The translations under genes were made by a program, and so were the position numbers. The notes under the pieces were generated by a model. It saw only the letters and a list, made by a program, of their open reading frames with translations. It was not told where the DNA came from and did not search any database. From assembly GCA_016744475.1 (NCBI GenBank), contig JADGEH010000016.1, positions 1 through 64,000 on the forward strand: a DNA stretch of 64,000 nt, given 5' to 3'. Position 1 is the first letter of the stretch, and the number at the start of each line of letters is the position of its first letter. Shown piece after piece: positions 3,605-62,745 of this stretch. This DNA is from Thiotrichales bacterium. GTDB taxonomy: Bacteria; Pseudomonadota; Gammaproteobacteria; Beggiatoales; Beggiatoaceae.

Positions 3605-3612
3605 GAGCGTTT

Positions 3613-3773
3613 AGAGCCTATACGAAGATGGGGAATCGAAGCGAAAATTCGCCATTTTGAGGCAGGTTTTTCGGTTTTTTAAGGCGAATAGCGGGTTATT
3701 TAACGAAAAAAAGCGGAAAACCTGACCAAAAGGGCGGGTTTGCAGCCGATTATCCCGTTTTTGTATAGGCTCT
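3613..3773 (+). repeat. family-1 ~161-bp hairpin repeat, copy A
   Basis: Ends in agagcctatacgaa and its inverse ttcgtataggctct (here ttgtataggctct). The whole element folds back on itself as an imperfect hairpin whose apex is aatagc/gttatt, with one G-U pair. It lies between pilS and the small downstream membrane-protein gene. About 161 bp long and non-coding. Confidence 0.9.
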
Positions 3774-3781
3774 TAAGGCCC

Positions 3782-6978: not shown

Positions 6979-7339
6979 ATGGGTCTCTCATTTTTTGCTG
7001 TGCCACGCCTGTCAATAGACTTGTTGCAACAAGTCTAATATCAACACAGACCGTTTAAACCGACCGTCTTTATAACGCTTCCCTCTATATTTTGCCTATC
7101 CAAATGATGAATACCCTAAATATTTTTTAGGGTCTTAGACTAAGTTTTATTAATTTGGGTATAATCTGCGGTTTTGCTGCAACGCAACACGCTGTTGCAG
7201 TGTTTATCATAAATATAAGGTGTTTGAGTCGTTCTACCGTCAGAAGAAGCAAAGCCCCATCGGCTATCACCTCTGTTTTTCAACAACCCGTGATGCTTTT
7301 TCAGGCCAAGACATGTCCCACACAGCTTATAACCACAAT
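6979..7339. other. gene-free stretch upstream of ribE with short palindromes
   Basis: No coding frame looks real here. The stretch holds the 20-bp palindrome at 7017-7036 and a hairpin ctgcaac/gttgcag near 7176-7200. Divergent promoters for ribE (minus) and the ndk side (plus) may lie here, but none is clear. Confidence 0.5.
7017..7036. repeat. minimal palindrome: two family-2 ends joined
   Basis: A perfect 20-bp palindrome made of the 10-base end of the family-2 repeat (agacttgttg) joined directly to its reverse complement, with no internal sequence. A near-identical relic lies at 28558-28577. Confidence 0.8.
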
Positions 7340-7500
7340 AGACTTGTTGCGAGGGGTCAACATCGTAGCGAAAAGGTGTGGTTTTGAGGCGATTTTTTCG
7401 GTTTTTTGAGGCGAATAACGGGTTATTTGTTGAGAAAAAGCGGAAAAACAGGCCAAAATCCACGCTTTTGCAGTCGATGAATGCCCCTTGCAACAAGTCT
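7340..7500 (+). repeat. family-2 161-bp hairpin repeat, full copy
   Basis: Bounded by agacttgttgc and gcaacaagtct. Its interior shares the family-1 plan: gcgaaaa, a T-rich arm, gaggcgaataac-gg-gttatt at the apex, an A-rich arm and tttgcagtcgat. The apical stem has A-T where family 1 has G-C, a compensatory change. It abuts a family-1 copy with a single intervening base. Confidence 0.9.
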
Positions 7501-7501
7501 A

Positions 7502-7662
7502 AGAGCCTATACGAAGATGGGGAATCGAAGCGAAAATTCGCCATTTTGAGGCGGGTTTTTCGGTTTTTTAAGGCGAATAGCACGCTATTTAACGAAAAAA
7601 AGCGGAAAACCTGACCAAAAGGGCGGATTTGCAGCCGATTATCCCATTTTCGTATAGGCTCT
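7502..7662 (+). repeat. family-1 161-bp hairpin repeat, copy B
   Basis: Complete copy with both agagcctatacga termini and apical stem aatagc-ac-gctatt. Its right end stops 24 bases before the ndk start codon, so the ndk promoter probably lies inside the repeat. Confidence 0.9.
7629..7658 (+). promoter_or_regulatory. possible repeat-borne sigma-70-type promoter for ndk
   Basis: ttgcag and tataGG-type hexamers separated by 18 bases lie in the right end of repeat copy B, about 30 bases before the ndk ATG. The same spacing recurs in other copies. The -10 match is imperfect, so this is a prediction from pattern only. Confidence 0.4.
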
Positions 7663-13702: not shown

Positions 13703-13862
13703 GGAGCCTATACGAAAACGGGATAATCGGCTGCAAACCCGCCCTTTTGGTCAGGTTTTCCGTTTTTTTCGTTAAATAGCGCGCTATTCGCCTTAAAAAA
13801 CCGAAAAACCTGCCTCAAAATGGCGAATTTTCGCTTCGATTCCCCATCCTCGTATAGGTTCT
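13703..13862 (-). repeat. family-1 hairpin repeat, copy C (inverted)
   Basis: Complete copy in the opposite orientation, with termini ggagcctatacga and cgtataggttct and a perfect apical stem aatagc-gc-gctatt. It lies 40 bases upstream of the glnD -10 element. Confidence 0.9.
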
Positions 13863-19094: not shown

Positions 19095-19637
19095 ATGAGC
19101 CAGTATAAAATCATTTTCACAGGGCCCTCTGGGGCCGGTAAAACCACGGCTATCGGTGCTATCAGCGATATTCCTCCGGTTAAAACCGATGAAGCATCAG
19201 TAGAAACCGCAGGCTATGTGGGGAAGAAAGGCATTACCGTGGCTTTGGATTACGGCATGATGCGCTTAAGCAGTGAAGATAAAGTGCATTTGTTTGGTAC
19301 GCCGGGACAAGAGCGCTTTGATTTTATGTGGGAGATTTTGGTGCAAGGTGGGTTAGGCTTGGTGTTGTTAATTGACAATACCAGTGACACGCCTTTTGAA
19401 GATATGCATTTTTTCTTAAATGCTTTTAAGCACTTCATTCATGACACACGGGTAGCCATTGGTGTCACTCGTATGGATCTGAACCCTTCTCCATCTATTG
19501 AAGATTATTATGCAGAAATTCAAAAAGCGGATTTACGCCCACCTATTTTTGAAGTGGATGCCCGTTCTAAAGAAGACGTCTCTTTGTTATTACAAGCCCT
19601 CATGTATTCCTTAGACCCCGGCATGGGTAGCGATTAG
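19095..19637 (+). CDS. MglA-like small GTPase
   Basis: 180-residue Ras-like GTPase. G1 is GPSGAGKTT (residues 10-18). G3 reads FGTPGQERF, with G68 where Ras proteins have Asp, a deviation shared by the bacterial MglA group. G4 is TRMD (125-128) and G5 VDARSKED. MglA-type GTPases cooperate with roadblock partners to set polarity of pili and gliding machinery. The roadblock gene 2 kb upstream is the obvious partner. The TAG stop codon coincides with the first bases of a family-1 hairpin repeat. Confidence 0.85.
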   Translation: MSQYKIIFTGPSGAGKTTAIGAISDIPPVKTDEASVETAGYVGKKGITVALDYGMMRLSSEDKVHLFGTPGQERFDFMWEILVQGGLGLVLLIDNTSDTPFEDMHFFLNAFKHFIHDTRVAIGVTRMDLNPSPSIEDYYAEIQKADLRPPIFEVDARSKEDVSLLLQALMYSLDPGMGSD

Positions 19638-19796
19638 AGCCTATACGAAGATGGGGAATCGAAGCGAAAATGCGCTATTTTGAGGCAGGTTTTTTGGTTT
19701 TTTAAGGCGAATAGCGGGCTATTTAATGAAAAAAAGCGGAAAACCTGACCAAAAGGGCGGATTTGCAGCCGATTATCCCGTTTTCGTATAGGCTCT
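19636..19796 (+). repeat. family-1 161-bp hairpin repeat, copy D
   Basis: Complete copy between two convergent genes. Its first bases overlap the TAG stop of the GTPase gene and its last base forms part of the TAA stop of speE. Apical stem aatagc-gg-gctatt. It probably serves as the shared terminator. Confidence 0.9.
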
Positions 19797-22827: not shown

Positions 22828-22988
22828 AGACTTGTTGCAAGGGGTATTCATCGACTGCAAAGGCGTGGATTTTGGCCTGTTTTTCCGCTTTTTCTCAACC
22901 AATAGCCCGCTATTCGTCTCAAAAAACCGAAAAAACCGCCTCAAAACCACACCTTTTCGCTATGATGCCTACCCCTCGCAACAAGTCT
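22828..22988 (-). repeat. family-2 161-bp hairpin repeat, inverted copy
   Basis: Complete copy in the opposite orientation with agacttgttgc/gcaacaagtct ends and apical stem aatagc-cc-gctatt. It fills the gap between dapC and glgX and lies 33 bases upstream of the glgX ATG. Confidence 0.9.
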
Positions 22989-24902: not shown

Positions 24903-24913
24903 ACCCAAAAGAA

Positions 24914-24962
24914 GCCTCAAAACCATACCGTTTCTACGATGCCCACCCCTCGCAACAAGTCT
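24914..24962 (-). repeat. family-2 repeat, truncated end fragment
   Basis: About 49 bases corresponding to one end of the family-2 repeat, finishing with cgcaacaagtct. The other end and the apex are missing. Confidence 0.7.
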
Positions 24963-28557: not shown

Positions 28558-28577
28558 AGACTTGTTGCAATCAGTCT
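28558..28577. repeat. minimal palindrome, second copy (imperfect)
   Basis: agacttgttgcaatcagtct, two family-2 ends joined head to head with one altered step. Compare the perfect version at 7017-7036. Confidence 0.7.
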
Positions 28578-28693: not shown

Positions 28694-28852
28694 AGACTTG
28701 CCCAGGCTTAAGCGCCGTAGCGAAAAGCAGTGGGATTGAGCGATTTTTTTCGTTCATTTGAGGCGAATAGTCATTCTATTTAACGAAAAGGAACGGAGAA
28801 AATCGCCAATATCCGCTGTTTTGCAGTCGGTGTCTTAAGCCTGGACAAGTCT
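28694..28852 (+). repeat. family-3 159-bp hairpin repeat
   Basis: Ends agacttgcccaggcttaag and cttaagcctggacaagtct, a third terminal type. The interior keeps the shared plan: gtagcgaaaag, an arm gcgatttt pairing with aaaatcgc, gaggcgaatag-tcatt-ctatt at the apex, and tttgcagtcg. It lies in the 446-base gap between the SNF2 gene and nnrS. The rest of that gap shows no gene. Confidence 0.85.
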
Positions 28853-41394: not shown

Positions 41395-41476
41395 GACAAC
41401 CTCCAATTCCGTTGTTTATTGATTATTCGCGGTGAGCAAGGTTTTGCCATTGAGACTGAATACTGCCCAGTTATTT

Positions 41477-41573
41477 GGAGTGTCAAACCGTAGTTTGACA
41501 CAGAAAAAGCGAAGCTAGCGCTTCGTATGCAGACCCTTCGACAGACTCAGGGCGAGTCTACGGTTTGGCCTCC
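41477..41573. repeat. REP (BIME-like) pair, downstream of the RAYT remnant
   Basis: ggagtgtcaaaccgtagtttgacac, whose gtgtcaaac-cgta-gtttgacac stem is perfect, then the small hairpin cgaagc-tagc-gcttcg, and at the far end tacggtttggcctcc in inverse orientation. It matches the pairs at 42148-42222 and 42845-42901. Confidence 0.85.
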
Positions 41574-41577
41574 AGTG

Positions 41578-42113
41578 TTAAAAATTATCTTCCTCAACTA
41601 ACAAGTATCGATATTCCTTATATTCCTGAAACTGTCTTGCCAGTGTCTCCCGCTCTTGAGTTTCCAACAAACGTTGAAAACTGGAAAAGTGATAGTCTTT
41701 CAAATCCGTGACATAGCCATGTTTGAAAGGATTATTGAACAAATAATTTTGACGCACGGTGTAATCATGCTCATTGCGGGGGCAATAATCCCAATAATTC
41801 CACCACACAGGCAAGGCACAGTCGGTCACCTCGCGGATAGGGTCGCAGAATGACTGTGGATACGCGCCATCAATTTAGCCAAATCTGCGCCTTTAGCACT
41901 TCTGCCCAACAAATGATAATGGTTATCTAAAATCACCCATTCATGTCATTGCCAATTAAACTTAGCAAAACTCTCTTGAATCAAGGCTAACAATTGTTGT
42001 TTAAGACTGTCTTGTGCCAGCAAGCGGCGTTTTTCATAGATAGCAGCGGTTAAAAAATAATCGGTTTCATCCAACATCAGATGCGCTGGTGTATGCAAAC
42101 TGCGCTTAAACAT
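41578..42113 (-). pseudogene. REP-associated tyrosine transposase (RAYT, TnpA-REP), decayed
   Basis: The 5' part reads M-F-K-R-S-L-H-T-P-A-H-L, then the HUH-type motif DNHYHLL. The 3' part reads VWWNYWDYCPRNEHDY and NYLFNNPFKHGYV, the Y1-transposase tail. Two lesions separate the parts: an in-frame TGA at 41946-41948 (WQ-stop-HEW) and a frameshift between about 41829 and 41850. Y1/RAYT enzymes cut and join single-stranded REP hairpins. Here the remnant is bracketed by REP pairs on both sides, the usual architecture for this class. Confidence 0.85.
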
Positions 42114-42147
42114 AGACTTTGCTTGTATTTTCAGGAGTATATTTCTC

Positions 42148-42222
42148 GGAGTGTCAAACCGTAGTTTGACACAGAAAAAGCGAAGCTACCGCTTCGTGTG
42201 CCAAACTACGGTTTGGCACTCC
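42148..42222. repeat. REP (BIME-like) pair, upstream of the RAYT remnant
   Basis: ggagtgtcaaaccgtagtttgacac, spacer with cgaagc-tacc-gcttcg, then gccaaactacggtttggcactcc. The two halves are inverted REPs. A further ggcactcc follows to about 42240. Confidence 0.9.
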
Positions 42223-42316
42223 AACTGGGTTCGGCACTCCGATTAGATTCGGATGAGATTGGGTAAATCGTGGAAAGCCGTCATAGATGGGCGGTGTTAG
42301 CAGCAGAGGCAGAGCA

Positions 42317-43531
42317 TCAACCCTGCCGCGATATATACGGAAAAGCATCAACCAACGCATCCAACGTCTGTTTACTATTCGCTTCAAACACAAAAATCCA
42401 ACTATCATTCATCCAGCCAAACCAGCGAGCACCCGACGCATCATCGCTTCCTTTCGCAATCCACCGAGCCTGCAAAATCCCTTTACTATGCGTTGGATAA
42501 CTTTTCACAATCGGCACTAATACGGTTTTAAAATACTCGCTGCCAACTTCCATAGAAACGGCTTTGATAACAGTCATTGTGGCAGAACTGCCATAACGCG
42601 CTTTAACGCCGCGATACTGTGTTTCATCAAGCGCCAGCACTTCAAGTTGCGCGGTTTGCCCCTGAAACTCGGCCAATATAACCTGCTCCACCACGCTCTG
42701 ATTATTGGCAGGAGGCGCAAGGTAAGTGTTATAGCCGTGGCTTTTCAACCAAAACACCGCCAAGGCAACTAACACAAACAGACCTAAAAACACGCCCAAC
42801 AAAATTTTCAACGCTTGCAATGGCTTTTCTCCTAAAATGAGTTTTGGAGTGTCAAACCGTAGTTTGACACCTGCATCTGCCAAACTACGGTTTGGCACTC
42901 CACTAAGGTTTTGTTTGCTATCCCAGACTTCAATCAGCGTCGGCAGCTTGGTGGCTCCCGTGGGTAATTCCTTGAGCAGTCGCTCAAGGAATTGGTCTTC
43001 ACGCTCAGTCTCATCGACACGCAAGGGCAACAAGGCTTTTGCTAAATATTTGAAGGCATTATCTTTGGGACGACATTCAATCACTTGCCAATGCGCAGGC
43101 AGATTGGGCACCAGCCCCGCGAACACCGCAGAAGATTTACCGCTACCGCTGACACCCACCAGCGCAATGAAATTCTGCTTGGCAAGCAGTTTCAGCAATT
43201 CGTGGGTTTCGTTTTCACGCCCATAAAACAGTTTATTTTTAGCATCTTCCGCACGAAAGGTGGCTAAACCTTTGTAGGGGTTGCTGAATTGGGTGGGAGT
43301 TTCTCTGGCAAGCTGCGGTGCAACTTGGCGGATGATGTTGAGCAGATGATCGAGTTCATTGCGGTTTTCTGCGTGTTGAATCAACAGTGTGGCTTGTTCA
43401 ACTTGAGATACTTTTTGCGGCAAGTAGGCGTTCTGCATCTGGAAACGGTGCAGCACTTCGGCAAATTCGCCCTCATTGAGGCGTTTGAGCCAATCCAGGG
43501 CTTGGTTGTGAGCAGACGGTGTTGGGTTCAT
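42317..43531 (-). CDS. STAND-like NTPase fragment fused to a membrane-anchored domain through a REP pair
   Basis: 404 residues. Residues 1-75 form a small helical domain (ALDWLKRLNEGEFAEVLHRF) resembling effector-associated or death-like adaptors of bacterial conflict systems. Residues 83-200 match the start of an STAND-type P-loop ATPase: NPYKGLATF, LFYGREN, Walker A GVSGSGKSS (126-134). The domain stops before any Walker B or sensor motif. Residues ~208-231 (SGVPNRSLADAGVKLRFDT) are the translation of a REP pair. One membrane helix (~242-262) and an unrecognised ~140-residue domain follow. The ATPase is probably non-functional. Whether the fusion is expressed is unknown. Confidence 0.75.
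   Translation of the reverse strand: MNPTPSAHNQALDWLKRLNEGEFAEVLHRFQMQNAYLPQKVSQVEQATLLIQHAENRNELDHLLNIIRQVAPQLARETPTQFSNPYKGLATFRAEDAKNKLFYGRENETHELLKLLAKQNFIALVGVSGSGKSSAVFAGLVPNLPAHWQVIECRPKDNAFKYLAKALLPLRVDETEREDQFLERLLKELPTGATKLPTLIEVWDSKQNLSGVPNRSLADAGVKLRFDTPKLILGEKPLQALKILLGVFLGLFVLVALAVFWLKSHGYNTYLAPPANNQSVVEQVILAEFQGQTAQLEVLALDETQYRGVKARYGSSATMTVIKAVSMEVGSEYFKTVLVPIVKSYPTHSKGILQARWIAKGSDDASGARWFGWMNDSWIFVFEANSKQTLDALVDAFPYISRQG
42845..42901. repeat. REP pair inserted in frame within the STAND-like gene
   Basis: ggagtgtcaaaccgtagtttgacac and gccaaactacggtttggcactcc with a 9-10-base spacer, read through in frame by the 404-residue gene. It lies exactly at the junction of the ATPase-like and membrane parts. 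Confidence 0.9.
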
Positions 43532-54826: not shown

Positions 54827-54915
54827 AGAGCCTATACGAAAACGGGATAATCGGCTGCAAACTTGCCTCAAAATGGCGAATTTTCGCTTCGATTCCCCAT
54901 CTTCGTATAGGCTCT
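54827..54915 (-). repeat. family-1 89-bp deletion-form hairpin repeat, copy E
   Basis: Both termini are intact but the central ~72 bases, including the apex, are missing. The join falls at the same place as in copy F (59692-59780). Its last base is part of the secF TAA stop codon. Confidence 0.9.
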
Positions 54916-59691: not shown

Positions 59692-59780
59692 AGAGCCTAT
59701 ACAAAGATGGGGAATCGAAGCGAAAATTCGCCATTTTGAGGCAGGTTTGCAGCCGATTATCCCGTTTTCGTATAGGCTCT
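59692..59780 (+). repeat. family-1 89-bp deletion-form hairpin repeat, copy F
   Basis: Same length and join point as copy E but inverted. Termini agagcctatac and gtataggctct. Lies between ilvE and the hemerythrin gene. Confidence 0.9.
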
Positions 59781-62706: not shown

Positions 62707-62745
62707 AGAGCCTATACGAAAACGAAATCATCGGCTGCAAACCCA
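62707..62745 (-). repeat. family-1 repeat, terminal fragment
   Basis: About 39 bases of one end (agagcctatacgaaaacg, then atcggctgcaaaccc). The other end is absent. Lies between hisC and gspK. Confidence 0.75.

Follow-up and report, generated by a model that had tools for sequence, protein, structure and literature searches.

A family of 160-bp palindromic repeats in a Beggiatoaceae genome combines MITE-like mobility with a covarying, strand-specific central fold

Palindromic repeats in the window

The window analysed here is the 64,000-nt stretch at positions 1–64,000 of contig JADGEH010000016.1, from a Thiotrichales bacterium of the family Beggiatoaceae. Seven full copies of a palindromic repeat, together with shortened derivatives and remnants of its ends, were located in it (Table 1). 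All seven had been placed by a preliminary description of this DNA, whose limits proved exact to 1–2 bases. With element limits given without the target duplication, the full copies in the window measured 157–159 nt. The core lay on the forward strand in five of the seven and was inverted in two (13704, 22829). The type 1 copy at 7503–7661 had inserted at a TAA abutting the type 2 element at 7341–7499. Both 87-bp derivatives and several end remnants were absent from the preliminary description; derivatives of exactly 87 bp occurred 18 times in the 2.04-Mb genome sample described below. The two end-only remnants (7018–7035 and 28559–28577) suggest that the hairpin can be lost precisely. The pilS-like neighbour of the first repeat had its best named protein relative in Thiomargarita sp. 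(75%), the next best being from Candidatus Venteria ishoeyi (58%).

Table 1 Repeat elements, derivatives and remnants in the window.
Feature	Position	Strand	Flanks	Remarks
Type 1 full element	3614–3772	+	TSD TTA on both sides (3611–3613, 3773–3775)	Directly upstream of a pilS-like gene
Type 2 end-only remnant	7018–7035		TA	Two ends fused without interior (GACTTGTTGCAACAAGTC)
Type 2 full element	7341–7499	+	TA	Folded core 7362–7478
Type 1 full element	7503–7661	+	TSD TAA	Folded core 7524–7639; upstream of ndk
Type 1 full element	13704–13861	-	TAG/TAA	Inverted
Type 1 full element	19637–19795	+	TSD TTA	Flanked by the 3' ends of a convergent ORF pair
Type 2 full element	22829–22987	-	TA	Inverted
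Type 2 half-element	24907–24961	-		Truncated
Type 2 end-only remnant	28559–28577		TA on both sides	Fused TIRs without interior (GACTTGTTGCAATCAGTC)
Type 3 full element	28695–28851	+	TA	Folded core 28714–28831
Type 1 internal-deletion derivative	54828–54914	-	TSD TTA	87 bp
Type 1 internal-deletion derivative	59693–59779	+	TSD TGA	87 bp
Type 1 end	62708–62745	-		Truncated

The elements had been described as self-complementary throughout, with arms that change in compensated pairs, and both statements held. The better strands of the seven full copies folded at −72.9 to −87.4 kcal/mol, compared with a mean of −36.8 kcal/mol (sd 8.7, minimum −68.9) for 300 random 159-nt segments of the window. The apical pair change (AATAGC/GCTATT at 7503 versus AATAAC/GTTATT at 7341) and the inner-arm pair change (CAGGTTTT/AAAACCTG at 3614 versus GCGATTTT/AAAATCGC at 28695) were both found in the sequence.

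Copy number and mobility

The genome assembly comprises 5.34 Mb in 253 contigs, and the repeat census was performed on 2.04 Mb (38%) of it. It counted 130 elements of type 1, 54 of type 2, 32 of type 3 and 4 full-length ones of type 4, with 73 full cores in the first 851 kb. By extrapolation from the 2.04-Mb sample, the genome carries roughly 450–600 copies, or about 500. The repeats have the size and build of MITEs: they are 157–162 bp long, carry TIRs that pair along the whole length and encode no transposase. An identical 3-bp TNA flank, that is, a target duplication, bordered 114/130 type 1 copies. TA was found on both sides of 50/54 type 2 and 30/32 type 3 copies (together 80/86).

To detect empty sites, the two flanks of every element were fused and the same genome was queried with the resulting insertion-free sequence. 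For type 1, gapless joined sites keeping one copy of the TSD were recovered in 22/111 cases and a site keeping two copies in one. Two of the 22 were uninformative, as the match for the window copy at 7503 was another type 2 end and that in L328 was a self-match. About 20 type 1 empty sites were consequently identified in the same genome, located in repeats, in gene paralogues and even within an element of type 3. The same joined-flank search found no clean empty site for types 2 and 3 in this genome, and the TA of these types is taken as a target duplication by analogy.

An IS with matching ends was also found. The genome analysed here encodes a transposase of the IS5 family (DDE_Tnp_1; NCBIfam transpos_IS5_3) beside the end GAGTCTATACGAA, which is preceded by TAA; the contig stops within the IS, and a single end survives in the contigs of this genome. 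A relative (G010) holds a complete 966-bp copy with the end GAGTCTATGCG, in which the DUF4096 and DDE ORFs occupy different frames. The IS5-family assignment was made with Pfam and NCBIfam. The repeat and the resident IS match at 12 of 13 bp of their ends and share nothing of the IS interior. The MITE ends read TATGCG in G010 and TATACG in this genome, and the G010 IS end has the same G. This lineage-specific letter, common to both, is a good indication that the ends of IS and MITE evolve in concert.

The IS1031 group of the IS5 family is characterised by a TNA duplication and a transposase frameshifted across two ORFs (PMC12016507), and type 1, alone among the types, is associated with TNA, two overlapping IS5 frames and a shared TIR. 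ISLrh, a member of this group, likewise has a 3-bp TNA duplication and two overlapping ORFs, and its TIR starts GAACCTGTCTAG (PMC12016507), resembling the GAGCCTGTCCGAG ends that occur in relatives; the repeats differ from such IS in having no transposase. Mobilisation of type 1 is close to settled. For types 2–4, with ends GACTTGTTGC, GACTTGTCCGG and GGAGCCTGTCCGAGAA, searches for DDE_3, DDE_Tnp_1 and DDE_Tnp_1_2 revealed no partner transposase. The IS427 group, which also belongs to the IS5 family, typically duplicates 2 bp (PMC3281130), and by analogy a duplication of this kind would fit these types.

A covarying central fold

Across 21 divergent cores, 30/46 pairs had changed on both sides with pairing kept, and 95.3% of cells paired; these counts come from sequences that share ancestry and are not independent events, and the null used is not phylogeny-aware. 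None of 500 shuffles reached the observed values, and shifting the partner by one column lowered pairing to about 53%. A 101-copy alignment, which is fitted to the covariance model, gave the same picture. The stems varied, and the internal-loop columns (GA/GCA, a bulged A, and a tandem GA with AACGA) were invariant or nearly so. From these comparative data, selection on a central fold of about 117–118 nt appears well supported. The proposal that the fold is kept while its sequence drifts is therefore borne out by strong covariation, which survives shuffles and slides and is strand-specific. Lack of covariation, or copies derived by recent duplication of a single sequence, would have spoken against it; both were looked for and neither was found. 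The preliminary description had called the family 'MITE-like or RNA-structured', and it is both, the MITE part by virtue of its target duplications, its empty sites and an IS whose ends match.

Strand specificity of the fold

A palindrome that is kept on either strand, or one that is decaying, should show G.T and A.C equally often. In the 21-core alignment, G.U outnumbered A.C by 116 to 7 on the favoured strand, and the consensus energy was −54.5 on that strand versus −23.8 on the other. For a six-sequence set, alifold gave −50.8 versus −26.3 for the opposite strand, and the structure optimised for the opposite strand held 13 A.C and 1 G.U. The favoured strand folded better in 170/170 full copies of types 1–4, by 21–24 kcal/mol on average, compared with an sd of 11 for the neutral strand difference in simulated decayed palindromes. 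The outer arms, which differ between types, showed the same strand preference. Two other palindrome families of this genome, type 5 and one of 101 bp, showed no strand difference above chance.

Mutation bias does not explain the G.U excess, because in unpaired columns changes towards G.U were not commoner than changes towards A.C. Within types, the wobble excess was mild among distinct variants (singletons 37:23, common variants 12:6). An MK-type contrast of wobble against A.C within types was not significant on distinct variants and was suggestive on copy counts. DNA folding parameters preferred the same strand, so the energies do not separate RNA from ssDNA. The fold is kept on one strand across many Pseudomonadota families, and the folded strand probably does something.

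Taxonomic distribution

A covariance model of the 117-position core (R1), built from six lineages of this bacterial family, matched 4/43 genomes within the family. Among 369 sampled Gammaproteobacteria genomes, 83 matched at E ≤ 1e−4 and 64, this one included, at E ≤ 1e−12; the latter represented about 41 families and reached 109 bits at full length. A phylum-wide sample added 35 genomes of another class at E ≤ 1e−6, with scores of up to 103 bits. The R1 E-values are rough, owing to a short calibration, and unrelated palindromes, type 5 for example, appear among the weak matches at around 30 bits; our conclusions rest on the strong matches. Those of the best matches in the class whose sequences were examined all retained TIRs and the fixed motifs CGTAGCGA, TTTTGAG, TTGAGGCGAATA, TATTTAACGA, GGCCAAAA and GCAGTAG with small changes. 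GTAG stood at the foot of the core in most lineages and was absent from type 1. An element specific to Beggiatoaceae had been considered, and this idea was overturned by the R1 matches across Gammaproteobacteria. The best explanation is that the repeats descend from one old hairpin element whose range takes in Gammaproteobacteria and one or more further classes of the phylum.

A blastn search with a window copy found no plasmid or phage relatives. With a relative's copy as the query, blastn returned one Pseudomonas plasmid and no match in E. coli or phages. Pseudomonas sp. MPC6 harbours an unannotated type 4 copy on a conjugative plasmid (L342:3001–3165; NZ_CP034782.1:140983–141147). Scans of IMG/VR with TIR patterns gave chance matches only; a core pattern located a divergent core copy on two IMG/VR contigs (L340:9546–9662; L341). 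Phages or prophages may thus be vehicles for the element.

Terminal types, chimeras and nesting

The preliminary description had recognised three terminal types with differing ends. The types exist, but their termini do not look unrelated, as across relatives they align as versions of a single TIR. Ends of copies in other families (TAGGAGCCTGTCCGAGAATAG, TAGGAGTCTGTCGGACTTAA, TAGGAAGCTGTCTGGTTAAA) link type 4 with type 3 (TAGACTTGTCCAGGCTTAA), type 2 and type 1 (GAGCCTATACGAA) in an alignment judged by eye, and total element length stays near 160 across distant families. The terminal types hence look like diverged versions of one drifting TIR. This comparison of ends among relatives weakened an earlier candidate explanation, in which unrelated ends were swapped onto one core.

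Exchange between types was also apparent. One element (L129:9956) joins a type 3 left half to a type 1 right half, and another (L137:18930) a type 2 left half to a type 1 right half; several type 1 copies have an apical right arm that resembles type 2. In L067, half of a type 1 element is nested within a type 3 element. The chimeras and the nested copy therefore indicate that types exchange through the palindrome.

What the fold may do

Only 3/166 full elements lay inside ORFs, though ORFs make up 83% of the sample. Between co-directional gene pairs, the folded strand was sense in 43 cases and antisense in 36 (P = 0.5), and orientation showed no bias relative to contig GC skew (57:54). A cis role in neighbouring transcripts would predict an orientation bias; as there was none, we infer that the fold serves the element itself. 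It most likely acts in the element's own propagation, as RNA or as ssDNA. Our leading guess leans modestly towards RNA, because wobble pairs are frequent and cheap in RNA.

We consider it likely that the repeats are MITEs mobilised in trans, with an old, selected one-strand core fold that acts for the element. Non-autonomous MITEs of ~160 bp would be mobilised by IS5-family DDE transposases, a step backed for type 1 by target duplication, empty sites and the resident IS, and suggested for types 2–4 by their TA/CTAG flanks. The ends would have drifted into lineage-specific types, with length and central fold kept. Selection would act on the central 118 nt to fold as one strand, such that stems covary, loop bases stay fixed and wobble is tolerated. 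As the leading guess, RNA transcribed across the element may be bound, via the conserved internal loops, by a host or transposition protein. We tentatively suggest, as a possibility that we hold with less than even confidence, that the core could be a structured, functional noncoding RNA found throughout Pseudomonadota, numbering up to hundreds of copies in a genome and aiding the element's transposition or tolerance through protein-bound internal loops.

The strongest alternative, which we regard as rather unlikely, is an ssDNA hairpin exposed in replication or transposition and bound or cut by a protein, in the manner of REP/RAYT or attC hairpins. Known ssDNA systems recognise bulged hairpins; the preference of DNA energy parameters for the same strand and the GTAG at the core foot in most lineages would both fit. 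However, the TSDs and TIRs are of the DDE type, orientation is independent of GC skew, and type 1 does without GTAG. Moreover, G.T is a true mismatch in DNA, and its frequency fits RNA better.

It is improbable that the core is mobile alone and that its ends were captured separately from unrelated IS families. Such true modularity could produce the chimeric and nested elements and the different flanks (TNA versus TA), but the ends of distant families line up with types 1–4 as one drifting TIR at a length near 160 and, fragments apart, no core was seen with unrelated ends or without ends.

Selection on the fold could be dispensed with if template switching in an imperfect palindrome copied arm onto arm, so that pairs changed together. 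The elements are long palindromes, and the two chimeras show exchange via the apex. Template switching would nevertheless erase internal mismatches, yet columns such as GA/CA and AACGA vary little or not at all. Nor would it enrich G.U on a single strand of the element irrespective of chromosomal orientation, and the type 5 palindromes of the same genome show only the strand difference expected by chance. We disfavour this account and judge it very improbable. A cis-regulatory RNA exapted by the host (mRNA stability, RNase III site, attenuator) and selected at each locus would suit the intergenic position of nearly all copies, and Correia and QMITE elements are transcribed or processed, but the lack of bias relative to co-directional genes and the close to neutral variation among copies of one type make it very unlikely too; a few exapted copies are possible.

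Relation to known elements

Rfam gave no match in the window and, otherwise, weak matches far below gathering scores, mostly to eukaryotic miRNA hairpins. No paper describing the repeat family was found in the literature searched, which lay outside subscription. An earlier description in a single species is possible, for example as the Shewanella SonMITE, which is named in the accessible part of a prokaryotic MITE review; that part lists no class-wide family.

Several known systems resemble the repeats in some respects. Correia elements/NEMIS of Neisseria are likewise short, palindromic, intergenic MITEs with a TA target and an RNA fold; they are known from Neisseria and, in the descriptions available in part and used for this comparison, no strand-specific core with fixed loops is reported. 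QMITE1 and QMITE2 of Coxiella burnetii are likewise long-hairpin MITEs and give rise to small RNAs, but QMITE1 measures 300–400 bp against 160 bp here and its authors found no relatives, and QMITE2 has direct repeats of 7–11 bp in place of TNA/TA (PMC5896051). Candidatus Thiomargarita nelsonii, of the same bacterial family, is described in the accessible part of its genome report as rich in unidentified palindromic repeats and MITEs; of those detailed there, a hupL MITE has a 10-bp direct repeat and a 19-bp IR and a dsrA intron MITE ends in TATAG, both unlike the repeats here (PMC4853749). REP/BIME with RAYT likewise form strand-specific hairpins with conserved unpaired bases and, in many copies, a GTAG foot. 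The repeats here, by contrast, have TIRs, target duplications and a fixed 160-nt length, and type 1 lacks GTAG.

Bacterial MITEs are usually seen as inert IS relics of one species or genus. To our knowledge, the conservation, strand specificity and taxonomic reach of the core are beyond what is known for bacterial MITEs. Covarying stems, fixed loops and one-strand wobble over ~40 families are a signature that normally marks functional RNA. If our reading is true, selection acts on a folded molecule carried by a non-autonomous transposon, and cultured relatives could be used to test whether MITE hairpins are anything beyond by-products of inverted repeats. A covariance model is now available for this repeat family, which is unannotated in the one named record examined.

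Other palindromic repeats

Further palindromic repeats were noticed alongside this family. A fifth palindromic MITE family of ~158 bp, with the TIR GGCTCTGTTGACATTT and TA on both sides in 21/26 cases (L297, L303, L315, L117 and others), has no complete copy in the window. An end similar to its TIR precedes an intact ORF for an IS630-family transposase (L067:991–2013) by 128 bp. A 101-bp palindromic repeat with the ends CGAGGCTGTAAAAGAAC sits in the loop of GC-rich hairpin repeats (L126:228, L145:12663, L279:1683, L308:8255, L310:14602 and L324:1671). The palindromic repeats CCCAGGGCGTTGCCCTGGG and GCCCCGTTGGGGC occur in dozens of copies (L115, L298, L304 and many others) and are insertion targets of type 1. 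Within the window, the palindrome TTTGGAGTGTCAAACCGTAGTTTGACAC is present in three copies at 41474–42902, around an nSTAND1-type ATPase ORF (42317–43531), with one copy inside the ORF.
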